64,000 nt of DNA, taken from positions 6,426,845 through 6,490,844 of the forward strand of contig OX639973.1 of assembly GCA_951828385.1 (NCBI GenBank), in the 5' to 3' direction. Of this stretch, positions 56,782 through 63,607 are shown in pieces. The notes beneath the pieces are model-generated. The model made no database searches. It saw only the letters and a program-made list of their open reading frames with translations, and had not been told where the DNA came from. The number at the start of each line of letters is the position of its first letter. The stretch's first letter is position 1. Both the position numbers and the translations under genes were made by a program. This DNA is from an uncultured Poribacteria bacterium (lineage in GTDB: Bacteria > Poribacteria > WGA-4E > WGA-3G).

Positions 56782-57591
56782 TTATTCTTCCGAGTTTTGC
56801 GCTTCAGGTTCAGGACGTGTGGTGATCCATGCTTGGAATGCTGCCATATCCGCAAAAAACGAACGCATGAGCGCAAACTCGCGCGGCGATGCAACAGCAC
56901 ACCGCAGCAACCCCTCTTGTTCCCCGTGTGTCTCTACGCGTTCGCGCCAAACCTCTTGAAACACATCATTATCCTCTGTCATGAAGATAGAAGACATACC
57001 GATTTGTACGATTTGAGTGGACAAGCCAGATATTTCAGAATCATTTTTCATCAATGGTTCAATGAGGTGTGTCTGTTGGAGTTTGTTGAGTTCCTTCATG
57101 TTATCAAGCGGGTCTTGAACTGTGGTCCCCCACTCACGAACAATGAAGTAGTAGTTCAGCCAGACCTGCAGTTCTGCATCGTCTTTATCTGCGCCGAGGG
57201 TGCCTTTGATTCTGGAAAGCGCAAGAGTTCTCATACTTTCTGTCGGCATTGCGTCAACGTACGCCCGAAAATTTTCATAATCTTGTCCGTCTTCCGTATT
57301 TATGTAGGTGAGATACGGTTCACTTGACAAGACGGCTTCTAAATCGTTTGGGCTTTGCGATGGGTCTGTTTCCGGTGCGGCTTCAAGAAGTTGCGACAAT
57401 AATATTTCTTGTTCTGCAGTCAACAGTTTGCTCGCCGATGCTTTTAATTCACGTCGGTGTTCCGCTTGTTGCGCGTGTATCTGATCCATCTCCTCCATCA
57501 TTTTACCGAACCACGGGACCACAAAAACGATCCCACCGACGAGAATTAGAACGCCTATACCGATAAGAATCAGAAATATTGGTTTTTTCAT
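56782..57591 (-). CDS. Membrane-anchored hypothetical protein
   Basis: The 269-residue protein has one N-terminal span ('FLILIGIGVLILVGGIVFVV') and a helical soluble part: 'MDQIHAQQAEHRRELKASAS', 'DAELQVWLNYYFIVREW', 'SEISGLSTQIVQIGMSSIFM'. I recognise no family. It is a single-gene transcript with a strong terminator. The soluble part would face the periplasm. Confidence 0.7.
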   Translation of the reverse strand: MKKPIFLILIGIGVLILVGGIVFVVPWFGKMMEEMDQIHAQQAEHRRELKASASKLLTAEQEILLSQLLEAAPETDPSQSPNDLEAVLSSEPYLTYINTEDGQDYENFRAYVDAMPTESMRTLALSRIKGTLGADKDDAELQVWLNYYFIVREWGTTVQDPLDNMKELNKLQQTHLIEPLMKNDSEISGLSTQIVQIGMSSIFMTEDNDVFQEVWRERVETHGEQEGLLRCAVASPREFALMRSFFADMAAFQAWITTRPEPEAQNSEE

Positions 57592-58083
57592 CTGATGCTC
57601 CTTTTTTCTTCGTGTTATGCTTTTATCGTAGCATTTTTCAAAGTAGACTGCAACCTTTTAACGCTCTCCCGTCAAATCCCCATGCTTTAGCTTGCGGGAT
57701 GTAGACGGAAACCAAGAGTTTGATAGAAAAATAAATTTGACATTCACACAGAAAAGTGGTATGATTACTATTAGCACTTGGTTAGGGTTCTCACCTCTCT
57801 CAATCTATGAGAGAGTCCTAACCGATCCCGTGAGAAGGATCGTGAGTGCGAAGTGCTATACCACTCAAAACTATATCGGTAGCATCGCGTAATCTCGTAG
57901 TAGCAGTGAAATGCACACGTTGCGTTTGCTACCACTTTTCAACTTTCAAAACGGGCGGGCTTGGCCGCCTAAAGTGGAGCGATACTAAGACGGGTTTTCT
58001 CTTAGAGAAAAGCGCAGTCGCTATGAAGCACAAGCCCCTACCTTTAGGTAGTGGGTACCTATGACGTAAGCATCGTGTTCCGG
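57592..58083. other. Gene-free region dense in hairpins
   Basis: This 490-bp stretch has no credible gene. Its core (57669-58055) is described in its own entry. A plus-strand frame at 57846-58064 encodes 'KCTRCVCYHF' but lacks a ribosome site and runs through the hairpins, so it is not accepted. Confidence 0.5.
57669..58055 (+). mobile_element. Possible tnpB-less IS200/IS605 relic or structured RNA
   Basis: At the left CCGTC...GACGG encloses ATCCC...GGGAT and a hairpin with loop TTTA (57669-57708). In the middle GGTTAGG...CCTAACC (57780-57823) encloses CTCTCTC/GAGAGAG, followed by GATCC/GGATC (57824-57841), GAGTG/CACTC (57844-57866) and GGTAGCA/TGCTACC (57879-57934). At the right CCCCTACC-TTTA-GGTAGTGGG (58035-58055). 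The end hairpins with TTTA loops resemble subterminal hairpins of IS200/IS605 elements and the 3' hairpin of TnpB-associated RNA. The function is inferred only from form. Confidence 0.4.
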
Positions 58084-60795
58084 TTAAAATTCGTAGATGA
58101 CCCCAAAGGAAAAAGTGAAACGAAATTGGGGGATTTCCAGAGATTCATTGAAGTCAATATTCAGTGCCTCCGTGGCTTCCTCAAATTCCAACGCTTCAAG
58201 TTCCGCCTCAAATCTATCGGCTAATTCATCGGCTAAACGAAACCGTATCGTGTTTTTCCTGTTATAGACATTCCAGATTTCAGTATATGCTGTTACGGGC
58301 AGTCCCCAGTACTTTCTTTTTTCGCTAAAGCGGAGATCCAAGCGGTGATACGCCGGAAACTCTGTCGGAAAAATCGCACCCGCAACATCAGAAATGAGCG
58401 GATGCATGCCTATCGTCACAGGATCCTGAACCATAATGAGGTTGCTTAAAGGCACAGCGGTGGTACCACTGGAATATTGCCACTTCGCGCCAATCTCTGT
58501 TGTCGTTGTTGGATTATAGTTAGCAACAATGCTAACAATGTGTGTGTTATCAAACAGAAACGGTTTATAAATATCGTCTGGTGTTTCACGCCGTTCAAGG
58601 TGCGTGTAGGCGTAGGATAGCCACCCGAAGAACTTTTCGCTCACACGGTGCCGCAGGAATATCTCCGCACCACTTACAAATCCTGCTCCTTGATTCAGGT
58701 ACGCCGTCGTTGTAGCAGCATCCGAGTCGTCAAAAAGTGCTTCAAGGTTGATGGAGCGCGCGACTAATCTTTGCATGTCTTTGTAATAAAGTGCGAACTT
58801 GAGCTCCGTTTGTGGCGATAACTTGTGTTCTAACTCCATGATGTAATGCTCGGTTAGGCTTGATTTTAGGTCTCGGGTGCCCTCCACCTTTAGTACTTGA
58901 TATGCCAACGGGCTCTGTTCATATCTACCGTAGGCAAACCGGAGCTTAGAAGTCGTTGGCAGTGTGAAGCTGAGACTCCCGCGCGGCTGAATTGAAAGCT
59001 CCTCCGTTAAATTGAGATAATCCAACCGCACCCCGAGCGCGATGGACAGAAACGATAGCGGATCATAGCGTGCCTGTAGGTACCCCTCGGCACGTCGAAA
59101 GGTATAATTAAATTCGTCAAGTTTCTGTGTCCATGCCGGTTCTTCTTCGCTTTCAAAATCTATCTTTCCTGGAGAAGAGGTGCGTGTAAGACTCTCCGCG
59201 GGACTCAGGGCAAGGAGAAATCCCGACTCTAATTGAAGTGTTGGTGTTAATTTGTAGGATACATCTTCGCGAAGCGTATACATCGGGGTGTTCACTTTGA
59301 TATCATAAATGAACCCTTCATTCTCAGGTTGATCCTCTTGGCGTGAGGTGCCGCCGAAATGAATATTGAGAAAACTGTGGGAACGCGTCAGCGAGAGATG
59401 AGATGTGAGTTTATCAGTGAAATGAGAGCGAAGATGGATACCCTCCGCTTCAAATCCGTTTTTGAAATAAGCGGAAAAATCAACGGCTTCCTCAATATCT
59501 TCTGATCCAACATCGGAGAAGTTAAAGTGATCTGTCGCGCCTAAACCGTTGAGCATTAAGTGATGCTTTGGCGTAAGTTGATATGCAAATTTGAGTTGAT
59601 AGTTCGACCAGTTCGGAAAGGTCCAATCAAAGAATAGTCCTAAGAGAAGATCAAGAGTGGTGAATCGTCCTGCCATGGAGGCGTACCCTTTGTCGCCGAT
59701 TTTGGCTTCAAGGAATCCAGAAGGCGATAAGATGTTTAGATCGATTGCACCCGCCCACCGTTTTTCCAAACGTTCACGGGAACGGATGGCAATCACCGAT
59801 TGTGAATCTAATCCGAACTCAGCACCGTACCCACCGGCGTAAATCTGAATATCCTCAATACTATGTGAGTTAATCGTTGAGATGAGACCGCCATAATGGA
59901 ACGGATAACCGAGTGGGGTTCTATCGAGATAGATAAGCGTCTCCCCAGGCGCACTTCCTCGGATATAGAGAATACCAAAGAGATCGTTCGGGATACCGAT
60001 GCTCGGCAACGTCGTGAGTCCCTTGAGCGCGTCGCGCCCTGTACCGGGAATCCGTATTAACTCACTACCCCGAATCTCTTTGCGACTAATCGTCGGTGCA
60101 AGGCGTTGCCCTTCTACAACAACTGTTTCGAGTCTAACCGCTGCACCGATATATATTTTTACCTGTGTGGTGTCGCCTGCTTTTACCTGTATTTTTGTAG
60201 TCGTAGCGGTCTCGAATGTCTCGTGGGTGATTGATAGGGTATAAATGCCAGGGGCGATACCTATAAACTGAAAGTTTCCCGATGCATCTGTTTTACCAGA
60301 CACGTCAATTTCGATGAAGCGGACCTCAGCATCCGCAAGAGTTTTTCCGGTCGTTTGGCTGTAGACGTGCCCGTCAATATCCCCGCTATCGGTGGCATTG
60401 ACAAACGGCACCTCCGCACCGGGGTAAAATCGTCCACGAAGCACCTCACCGGCGCGGATCTCAATCGGAATCTCTGTGGGTGTACTATGCGTCGGGTGGG
60501 AGATGGAGAGTGTATATTTTCCGACAGGTATATCGGTAAAGCGGAATGTTCCGTCTTCACCGGTTTTTTCAGATTGATCGGTCTCAACAATGTGAACTTC
60601 GGCCGCAAATAGGGGCGTGTCGGTATCAGGCTGAAAGACTGTGCCTTCTATATCGCCTGTGCGTGGGAGAATCCGCTGCCAGATACTTCTTTTCGTTTTA
60701 GGACTCTGATCTTTTTCGGTATCATCCGATTCAGCAAAAACAGAAAGCGGTAGCATAAGCACTACAAACAGGATTAGACATAGACGGAATAGCAT
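58084..60795 (-). CDS. TonB-dependent receptor with two carboxypeptidase-regulatory-like domains
   Basis: From ATG 60795 (GGAGG upstream) the 903-residue protein has a signal peptide ending near 'SVFAES'. Residues about 45-120 and 130-210 are two CarboxypepD_reg-like beta sandwiches ('GTVFQPDTDTPLFAAEVHIV', 'GHVYSQTTGKTLADAEVRFI'). A plug follows ('ETVVVEGQRLAP', 'DLFGILYIRGSAPGETLIYL') and a 22-strand barrel ending 'PQFRFTFSFGVIYEF'. No TonB box was identified. Such receptors import large ligands through the outer membrane. The ligand is unknown. It lies 115 bp after a disrupted DUF3352 gene. Confidence 0.9.
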   Translation of the reverse strand: MLFRLCLILFVVLMLPLSVFAESDDTEKDQSPKTKRSIWQRILPRTGDIEGTVFQPDTDTPLFAAEVHIVETDQSEKTGEDGTFRFTDIPVGKYTLSISHPTHSTPTEIPIEIRAGEVLRGRFYPGAEVPFVNATDSGDIDGHVYSQTTGKTLADAEVRFIEIDVSGKTDASGNFQFIGIAPGIYTLSITHETFETATTTKIQVKAGDTTQVKIYIGAAVRLETVVVEGQRLAPTISRKEIRGSELIRIPGTGRDALKGLTTLPSIGIPNDLFGILYIRGSAPGETLIYLDRTPLGYPFHYGGLISTINSHSIEDIQIYAGGYGAEFGLDSQSVIAIRSRERLEKRWAGAIDLNILSPSGFLEAKIGDKGYASMAGRFTTLDLLLGLFFDWTFPNWSNYQLKFAYQLTPKHHLMLNGLGATDHFNFSDVGSEDIEEAVDFSAYFKNGFEAEGIHLRSHFTDKLTSHLSLTRSHSFLNIHFGGTSRQEDQPENEGFIYDIKVNTPMYTLREDVSYKLTPTLQLESGFLLALSPAESLTRTSSPGKIDFESEEEPAWTQKLDEFNYTFRRAEGYLQARYDPLSFLSIALGVRLDYLNLTEELSIQPRGSLSFTLPTTSKLRFAYGRYEQSPLAYQVLKVEGTRDLKSSLTEHYIMELEHKLSPQTELKFALYYKDMQRLVARSINLEALFDDSDAATTTAYLNQGAGFVSGAEIFLRHRVSEKFFGWLSYAYTHLERRETPDDIYKPFLFDNTHIVSIVANYNPTTTTEIGAKWQYSSGTTAVPLSNLIMVQDPVTIGMHPLISDVAGAIFPTEFPAYHRLDLRFSEKRKYWGLPVTAYTEIWNVYNRKNTIRFRLADELADRFEAELEALEFEEATEALNIDFNESLEIPQFRFTFSFGVIYEF

Positions 60796-60878
60796 GAAAA
60801 AATTTCGACCTCCGTTTGGAATCTGAATTGTAGGCTTTAACGCTAAACAAAGCGTTCTGGTTGACACAATACGGAATG

Positions 60879-62480: not shown

Positions 62481-62777
62481 ATGGCGAAACGAAAACGAAG
62501 AAACTTCACCCCTGAGTTTAAAGGCCAAGTTGTTCTTGAGGCACTTAGCGGTGAAAGTTCGCAAGCAGAAGTGTGTCGTCGACACAACCTGAGTGAAGAT
62601 CAACTCTCTAAGTGGAAGCAGCAAGTCGTTGAAAACGTAGGCTCTCTGTTTGTGTCCACAGAGAAACAGTCCAGCGAGGCAGCGGAGCGGATCGCCCACC
62701 TTGAACAGCTCGTCGGGCGGTTGACTGTGGCATTAGATATTCAAAAAAAAGCAGCGACGTGGTTAGACCAAAACTGA
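62481..62777 (+). CDS. IS3-family transposase OrfA (intact copy)
   Basis: The 98-residue protein has the helix-turn-helix text 'FTPEFKGQVVLEALSGESSQ' and 'AEVCRRHNLSEDQLSKWKQQ', then a leucine-zipper-like tail ('RIAHLEQLVGRLTVALDIQK'). GAAAGGAGG precedes the ATG. Near its end 'CAAAAAAAAGC' (A8) offers a -1 slippage site to make the OrfAB fusion transposase. Confidence 0.95.
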   Translation: MAKRKRRNFTPEFKGQVVLEALSGESSQAEVCRRHNLSEDQLSKWKQQVVENVGSLFVSTEKQSSEAAERIAHLEQLVGRLTVALDIQKKAATWLDQN

Positions 62778-63607
62778 CGGAGCAGCGAGAAATAGTTGAG
62801 GCACTCCGGACCGATTATTCGGTTCGACAGATATGTGAGGTGCTGGGTTTCACCCGAAGCAACCTCTACTATCACCCCAAGCAGGACCCTTCTGAAGAAG
62901 TCCTGCGGGATGAAATAGAGACGTTGGCACTGCGGTATCCGACATACGGATATAGGCGTATCAGACAGCTGCTACAGCGTATGGGATACACCGTTGGGTA
63001 TAAACGTGTCTCCCGCTTGATGAAAGCTTTGAACGTGTCGGTATCCGTGAAACGTGTCTGTCAAACGACGACCTCCGTTGACAGAACGCGTCCGTGGGTG
63101 AATCGCCTCAAAGACCTTCAGGTCTGTCGATGCGATCAGGTCTGGGTCGGCGATATTACCTACGTCCACCTGAAAAGACGTTTCATCTATGTCGCTCTGC
63201 TCATGGATGTCTTCACGCGTATGATCAGAGGATGGCATCTGAGTCAGGACTTGACAGAATCTCTGACCTTGAAACCCTTAGAGACGGCACTCTGTCAAAG
63301 CATCCCGGAGATCCATCATTCCGATCAAGGTGTGCAATATCTTTCAAAGGCTTACCTGTCAACCCTCAGGCATCATGGCATTGAGATTTCGGTCGCCCGG
63401 AGAGGCTGTCCTTGGGAGAACGGGTATGCTGAAAGACTCATCCGAACGCTCAAGGAGGAAGAAGTTCATCTCAACGATTACGAGGACATCCATGAGGCAA
63501 GAGATCGTATCGGTCATTTTATTACACAGGTGTATAATCAGAAACGCCCACATTCGGCGTTAGACTATTTGACACCTATGGAATTCGAGCAACAAAACTT
63601 GGATTAA
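62759..63607 (+). CDS. IS3-family transposase OrfB (intact copy)
   Basis: The 282-residue protein (GTG start, or -1 frameshift from OrfA) has an HTH_21 region ('YPTYGYRRIRQLLQRMGYTV') and an rve integrase core with all three acidic residues: D in 'QVWVGDITYVHLKRRFIYVA', D in 'EIHHSDQGVQYLSKAYLSTL' and E in 'CPWENGYAERLIRTLKEEEV', and the closing '[15 protein letters not shown]'. It should catalyse cut and circle transposition. Its reading frame is the standard by which the decayed copy was judged. Confidence 0.95.
   Translation: MVRPKLTEQREIVEALRTDYSVRQICEVLGFTRSNLYYHPKQDPSEEVLRDEIETLALRYPTYGYRRIRQLLQRMGYTVGYKRVSRLMKALNVSVSVKRVCQTTTSVDRTRPWVNRLKDLQVCRCDQVWVGDITYVHLKRRFIYVALLMDVFTRMIRGWHLSQDLTESLTLKPLETALCQSIPEIHHSDQGVQYLSKAYLSTLRHHGIEISVARRGCPWENGYAERLIRTLKEEEVHLNDYEDIHEARDRIGHFITQVYNQKRPHSALDYLTPMEFEQQNLD

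Follow-up and report, generated by a model that had tools for sequence, protein, structure and literature searches.

The window analysed here is a 64,000-nt stretch of contig OX639973.1 (assembly GCA_951828385.1), the single 6.66-Mb contig of the genome of an uncultured Poribacteria bacterium, a sponge symbiont; all coordinates are window positions. Lying between two minus-strand ORFs (56782–57591 and 58084–60867) is a mobile element of 404 bp. The longest start-to-stop frame in it, with M, V and L allowed as starts, has 72 codons and there is no convincing ORF, as the original prediction had claimed of a hairpin-rich segment at 57669–58055; its location was right and its extent was not, the true limits being slightly wider. 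The DNA features of the element are as follows.

57657–57661, + strand: TTTAA, target motif and candidate TAM directly left of the element (empty sites in relatives; tnpA+tnpB elements)
57662–58065, + strand: the full element, gene-less and of IS200/IS605 type, 404 bp, target not duplicated (empty-site comparison; genomic copies)
57675–57698, + strand: left-end (LE) subterminal hairpin with a TTTA loop, AATCCCCATGCTTTAGCTTGCGGG (also in the tnpA+tnpB elements L031–L034)
57737–57765, + strand: sigma-70-type promoter, TTGACA-17-TATGAT, extended −10, 11/12 consensus (motif match)
58035–58055, + strand: right-end (RE) subterminal hairpin with a TTTA loop, CCCCTACCTTTAGGTAGTGGG, 10 nt from the element end (folding)

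Elsewhere in the window, at 62481–63607, are two ORFs resembling an IS3-type orfA/orfB pair.

Insertion site and relatives of the element

Five syntenic relatives without the element keep the empty site, TTTTAA/GTCAACATC (also given as TTTTAA/GTCAACATCG; ATTTAA in one), which in the window reads TTTTAA/404 bp/GTAAGCATCG. The insertion is exact, lies 3′ of a short target motif and leaves the target unduplicated, which is the signature of IS200/IS605 insertion and indicates that this copy arrived after divergence from the five relatives. In the same genome, TTTAA also precedes tnpA+tnpB elements whose ends are of this type, and the imperfect subterminal hairpins at both ends are common to the autonomous copies. 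With its shared ends and exact empty site, the element is a small, gene-less, non-autonomous IS200/IS605 transposon of the PATE/MITE type, and its earlier description as tnpB-less IS200/IS605 is upheld. The word relic, attached to that description, is not: the element is no decayed relic, because compensatory changes maintain its RNA in 41 gene-less copies and the insertion is lineage-specific.

The original prediction was to fail if further copies, covariation and transcription were all absent; the first two were found, covariation among gene-less copies. A blastn search with the segment gave 51 matches in the same genome, of three kinds: tnpA+tnpB elements of ~1.77 kb (L031–L034), tnpB-only elements of 1.4–1.5 kb (L035–L042 and L045–L048) and gene-less elements of 400–500 bp. 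Pfam assigns TnpA to Y1_Tnp (E-value of 3.6e-40) and TnpB to OrfB_IS605 with TNB domains; a Y1 transposase is thus encoded in the same genome by elements with the same ends, and mobilisation of the gene-less element is predicted. Its gene-less relatives number ~50 and are spread over 19 genomes, all from a single genus of Poribacteria. Searches of phage and plasmid collections gave no match to the element, and no relative of TnpA was found in viral contigs. Three further gene-less loci (L018, L026 and L029; G000:C1 6262046, 1824610 and 4978656) have IS605-type LE and RE and unrelated interiors, L026 and L029 having in common one interior of ~280 nt without D1, the first RNA domain described below.

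A structured RNA of three domains

The plus-strand RNA folds with −133.2 kcal/mol (z-score of −5.8), better than all 100 dinucleotide shuffles; the minus strand likewise beats 100 of 100 (z-score of −4.6), and the z-score of the DNA fold against such shuffles is −6.1. Hairpins lie where they had been predicted, with GGTTAGG/CCTAACC (57780–57786/57817–57823) enclosing CTCTCTC/GAGAGAG (57795–57801/57809–57815) and TTTA loops in the two outer hairpins. These hairpins are real and under selection. A further pairing, GAAAAGTGGTA with TACCACTTTTC (57751–57761 with 57930–57940), overlaps the promoter and is absent from other copies, and was therefore discarded as chance. An equivalent promoter is present in nearly all of 43 gene-less copies and also in the tnpB-only elements. 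Downstream of it are three RNA domains, here called D1, D2 and D3.

57770–57870, + strand: domain D1 (model R1), with P1, P2, P3, P4, a pseudoknot and P5 (alignment; homology to tnpB 5′ leaders)
57774–57779, + strand: 5′ strand of P1, GCACTT, complementary to repeats R1 and R2 alike (pairing analysis)
57788–57794, + strand: 5′ strand of the pseudoknot, TTCTCAC, in the P2/P3 internal loop (pairing over the alignment)
57830–57836, + strand: 3′ strand of the pseudoknot, GTGAGAA, in the P4 hairpin loop (pairing over the alignment)
57844–57849, + strand: repeat R1, GAGTGC, partner of the P1 5′ strand (97.4% of cells paired in gene-less copies)
57851–57856, + strand: repeat R2, AAGTGC, alternative partner of the P1 5′ strand (91.6% in gene-less copies) or of a downstream CACT-like segment, here CACT at 57862–57865 (P5, 77%)
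57875–57935, + strand: domain D2, which takes the place of tnpB and consists of a closing stem and a hairpin with GUGAAA (alignment, covariation)
57949–58065, + strand: domain D3, omegaRNA scaffold including RE (homology to tnpB-carrying elements)
58066–58081, + strand: presumed 16-nt guide in the right flank, GTAAGCATCGTGTTCC (position only, by analogy with the reRNA of PMC8612924)

D1 is a three-way junction closed by P1, from which extend an arm formed by P2 and P3 and the hairpin P4. The loop of P4 pairs with the internal-loop strand of the P2–P3 arm, forming a pseudoknot that is 100% paired across 39 distinct sequences, with compensatory changes in four of its seven pairs. The alignment of D1 and D2 covers 41 gene-less copies, drawn from many species of one genus. 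Over 40 pairs, 97.2% of cells are paired and changes on both sides occur in 26 pairs and 297 cells, a count that includes inherited changes and hence not independent events; shuffles give a mean of 88 such cells, and none of 500 reaches the real count. Sliding the partners by 1–3 columns lowers pairing to 35–48%.

D2, whose hairpin carries GGUGAAA, did not turn up in tnpB elements and is therefore no remnant of them. Among 60 relatives searched it occurs in 51 copies in 19 genomes, all of one Poribacteria genus; a search of 84,980 species genomes for its exact pattern gave 13 stretches, every one from Candidatus Poribacteria, and viral contigs gave no match. The GGUGAAA loop of the D2 hairpin, at 57899–57935 in the window and in D2 generally, looks to the eye like the 690 loop of 16S rRNA, which may be coincidence.

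D3 (positions 295–411 of the query) is 94–95% identical to the 3′ ends of those tnpB-carrying elements that match it best in this genome; for intact tnpA+tnpB elements the identity over the right end is ~95%. Over the last ~100 nt, gene-less copies (A5) and tnpB elements (A6) have one consensus, and in both the RE hairpin ends 10 nt before the flank. In A5, 7 of 17 pairs of the core stem and RE hairpin have changed on both sides and still pair, without a coding frame. The reRNA of ISDra2 consists of the tnpB 3′ end, RE and ~16 nt of flank (PMC8612924), and in omegaRNAs no more than 10 nt separate a stem-loop from the guide (PMC10278001); the layout of D3 fits both by analogy. Homology of the 3′ third to tnpB 3′ ends and RE makes a stand-alone guide-RNA-like element, as originally proposed, plausible, and suggests that TnpB may use D3. 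Part of the conservation of D3 could come from constraint on the DNA, since it doubles as the RE needed by TnpA. In the right ends of L036, L037 and L026, long palindromic expansions made of AACCAATAACCAAT or CCAGTTACTGG repeats lie in the omegaRNA hairpin that GACGGT and GAGAAAACCGC flank.

At the gathering and E-value thresholds no Rfam family matches the element, D1 and D2 included, and in this respect the proposal of a novel structured RNA holds. The covariance-model comparison included HEARO, which did not match. Group I and group II introns and IStrons were rejected, there being no Rfam intron match and a different topology.

D1 as a leader of tnpB genes

A model built from gene-less D1 alone retrieves tnpB leaders (E-values of 5e-8 and 1.6e-7). 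Aligned separately, 22 such leaders show the same topology as gene-less D1, with 97.9% of cells paired and compensatory changes in 18 of 32 pairs and 118 cells. Gene-less D1 forms a separate sequence group, and the matches of models R1 and R3 barely overlap. Within this genome, leader-type D1 lies just upstream of tnpB in 38 of 40 copies, and a D1 leader is present at 38 of 54 tnpB genes, the exceptions including the four tnpA+tnpB elements. Across 84 genomes of the phylum, searched with strict filters, D1 was found in all 38 of the genus and in 8 of 20 from elsewhere in the family; it was also found in 3 of 14 that belong only to the same order, and in none of the remaining 12. In leaders L040, L041 and L046 a GC-rich insertion (CGCCCC..AGTAACGGGCGGGG) makes P3 larger.

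Directly 3′ of P4, R1 and R2 are tandem copies of a motif of ~7 nt, each complementary to the P1 5′ strand. In the 22 leaders P1–R1 is 95.5% and P1–R2 93.5% paired, and the same variable column is compensated by both partners; D1 therefore has, as riboswitches do, two mutually exclusive helices that are both backed by covariation. Their energies, with the pseudoknot ignored, differ by no more than 0.6 kcal/mol in 14 of 22 leaders. The tnpB start codon follows R2 within a few nt, the second helix ending just before it, and none of the 22 leaders has a Shine–Dalgarno-like tetramer between the two. Pairing of the P1 5′ strand with either repeat suggests a switch, in which the modelled P1–R1 and P1–R2 helices would act in turn.

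A proposed use of the RNA and its rivals

We consider it probable that the element is a non-autonomous IS200/IS605 element of the PATE/MITE type that borrows TnpA and forms one transcription unit for an RNA of ~300 nt, which would guide TnpB to the element's own empty site. TnpA of intact relatives would recognise the LE and RE hairpins and make the insertions observed 3′ of TTTAA. Transcription would run from the promoter through D1, D2 and D3 into the right flank, and D3 with ~16 flanking nt would act as an omegaRNA for TnpB made elsewhere in the cell. Its target is likely to be the empty donor site (TTTAA and flank), so that sites left by excision would be cut and refilled from the sister copy. 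D1, with its pseudoknot and two exclusive P1 helices, most likely controls or stabilises the transcript, and D2, which replaces tnpB, may be a folding or stability module. Against this explanation, D1 and D2 are to our knowledge dispensable for the omegaRNA in every TnpB studied. The RNAs could also be made without being used by TnpB.

Were only the DNA ends to matter, for TnpA, as in an ordinary PATE/MITE, the internal RNA would be a passive remnant of a tnpB leader and 3′ end. Such ends-only IS605 elements exist, one consisting of LE, the last 58 nt of tnpB and RE (PMC7290912), but all three domains of the gene-less copies show compensatory changes, which largely refute this explanation, the promoter is conserved and D2 is no such remnant; we regard it as unlikely. 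About as improbable is that the gene-less RNA is a regulatory decoy, titrating through the shared D1 a factor that controls tnpB (TnpB itself or a host RNA-binding protein) rather than acting as a guide. The common topology of D1 in both classes and its presence at so many tnpB loci would suit a decoy, as would the reported inhibition of TnpB activity by its own mRNA (PMC10278001), yet the retained omegaRNA scaffold and the RE–flank boundary would be left without explanation, and gene-less D1 is a distinct sequence group.

Very unlikely, and the least probable of these alternatives, is a ribozyme or intron in D1–D2, self-cleaving or self-splicing, by which the omegaRNA would be released or the element cut out of mRNAs, as in an IStron. 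IStron copies without ORFs have spread (PMC4227781), and the D1 pseudoknot and tandem repeat, the latter a possible strand-exchange site, are what such an RNA might contain. Against it, there is no Rfam match to group I or group II introns or known ribozymes, the pseudoknot topology is not P3/P7, and the covarying helices contain little of the invariant sequence expected of an active site.

Several known systems come close to the element. IS605 elements that are non-autonomous are already a known kind, and so are guide-RNA loci that stand alone. With IS200/IS605 elements (IS605 with tnpA and tnpB; IS1341-type with tnpB only) the present element has in common the LE and RE subterminal hairpins, an omegaRNA/reRNA at the right end and the mode of insertion, whereas it has neither tnpA nor tnpB, the latter replaced by D2. 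Like PATEs and IS200/IS605-derived MITEs it is short, gene-less and multicopy, has the ends of an autonomous relative and is presumably moved in trans; unlike them it has its own promoter and ~300 nt of covarying RNA that include the full omegaRNA scaffold. As in TnpB omegaRNAs/reRNAs (Karvelis 2021; Nety 2023), the 3′ scaffold extends to RE, with a covarying core stem and a hairpin ≤10 nt from a flank-encoded guide, but D3 follows D1 and D2 and has no tnpB gene beside it, and its use by the nuclease is putative. IStrons also have IS605-type ends, a complex RNA and ORF-less copies that spread; the element lacks their group I intron.

HEARO, the omegaRNA of IscB, lies 5′ of iscB and has its guide at the 5′ end. 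At stand-alone HEARO loci a guide-RNA-like locus likewise lacks a nuclease gene, copies of which lie elsewhere in the genome; the present element differs in having no HEARO match. RAGATH-18, the reRNA of IS607 TnpB, adjoins an IS607 tnpB in 64% of cases and not in the rest (PMC11061315); as D1 is, it is structured, pseudoknotted and TnpB-associated, but it is of the IS607 type and a 3′ scaffold, whereas D1 is a 5′ leader without an Rfam family. Literature searches, whose scope took in few subscription papers, returned nothing that describes this element or a pseudoknot in a tnpB leader, and none of the papers searched had a gene-less element in which a promoter, leader pseudoknot, new domain and omegaRNA scaffold are conserved together.

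The usual view of gene-less IS605 derivatives is that they are debris with DNA ends only. Here, an omegaRNA scaffold and two more RNA domains are conserved in a gene-less family of ~50 copies, which makes it possible to test directly whether TnpB acting in trans protects non-autonomous elements from loss. For D1 and D2 there are now covariance models and dozens of sequences. A wider reading, offered tentatively and falling short of an even chance, is that these are a new class of transposon RNA: a bistable, pseudoknotted D1 would gate TnpB synthesis in tnpB-only elements, and gene-less elements with D2 would have taken D1 over, spread as RNA-only selfish units and supplied omegaRNA to the TnpB of others. 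PMC10278001 leaves open how an mRNA regulates the TnpB that it encodes, and the D1 leader offers a possible answer.

One D1 leader with a promoter (L192; G000:C1:3817252–3817350) lies upstream of a non-tnpB ORF of ~170 amino acids resembling a membrane protein, and is possibly a captured or domesticated leader.
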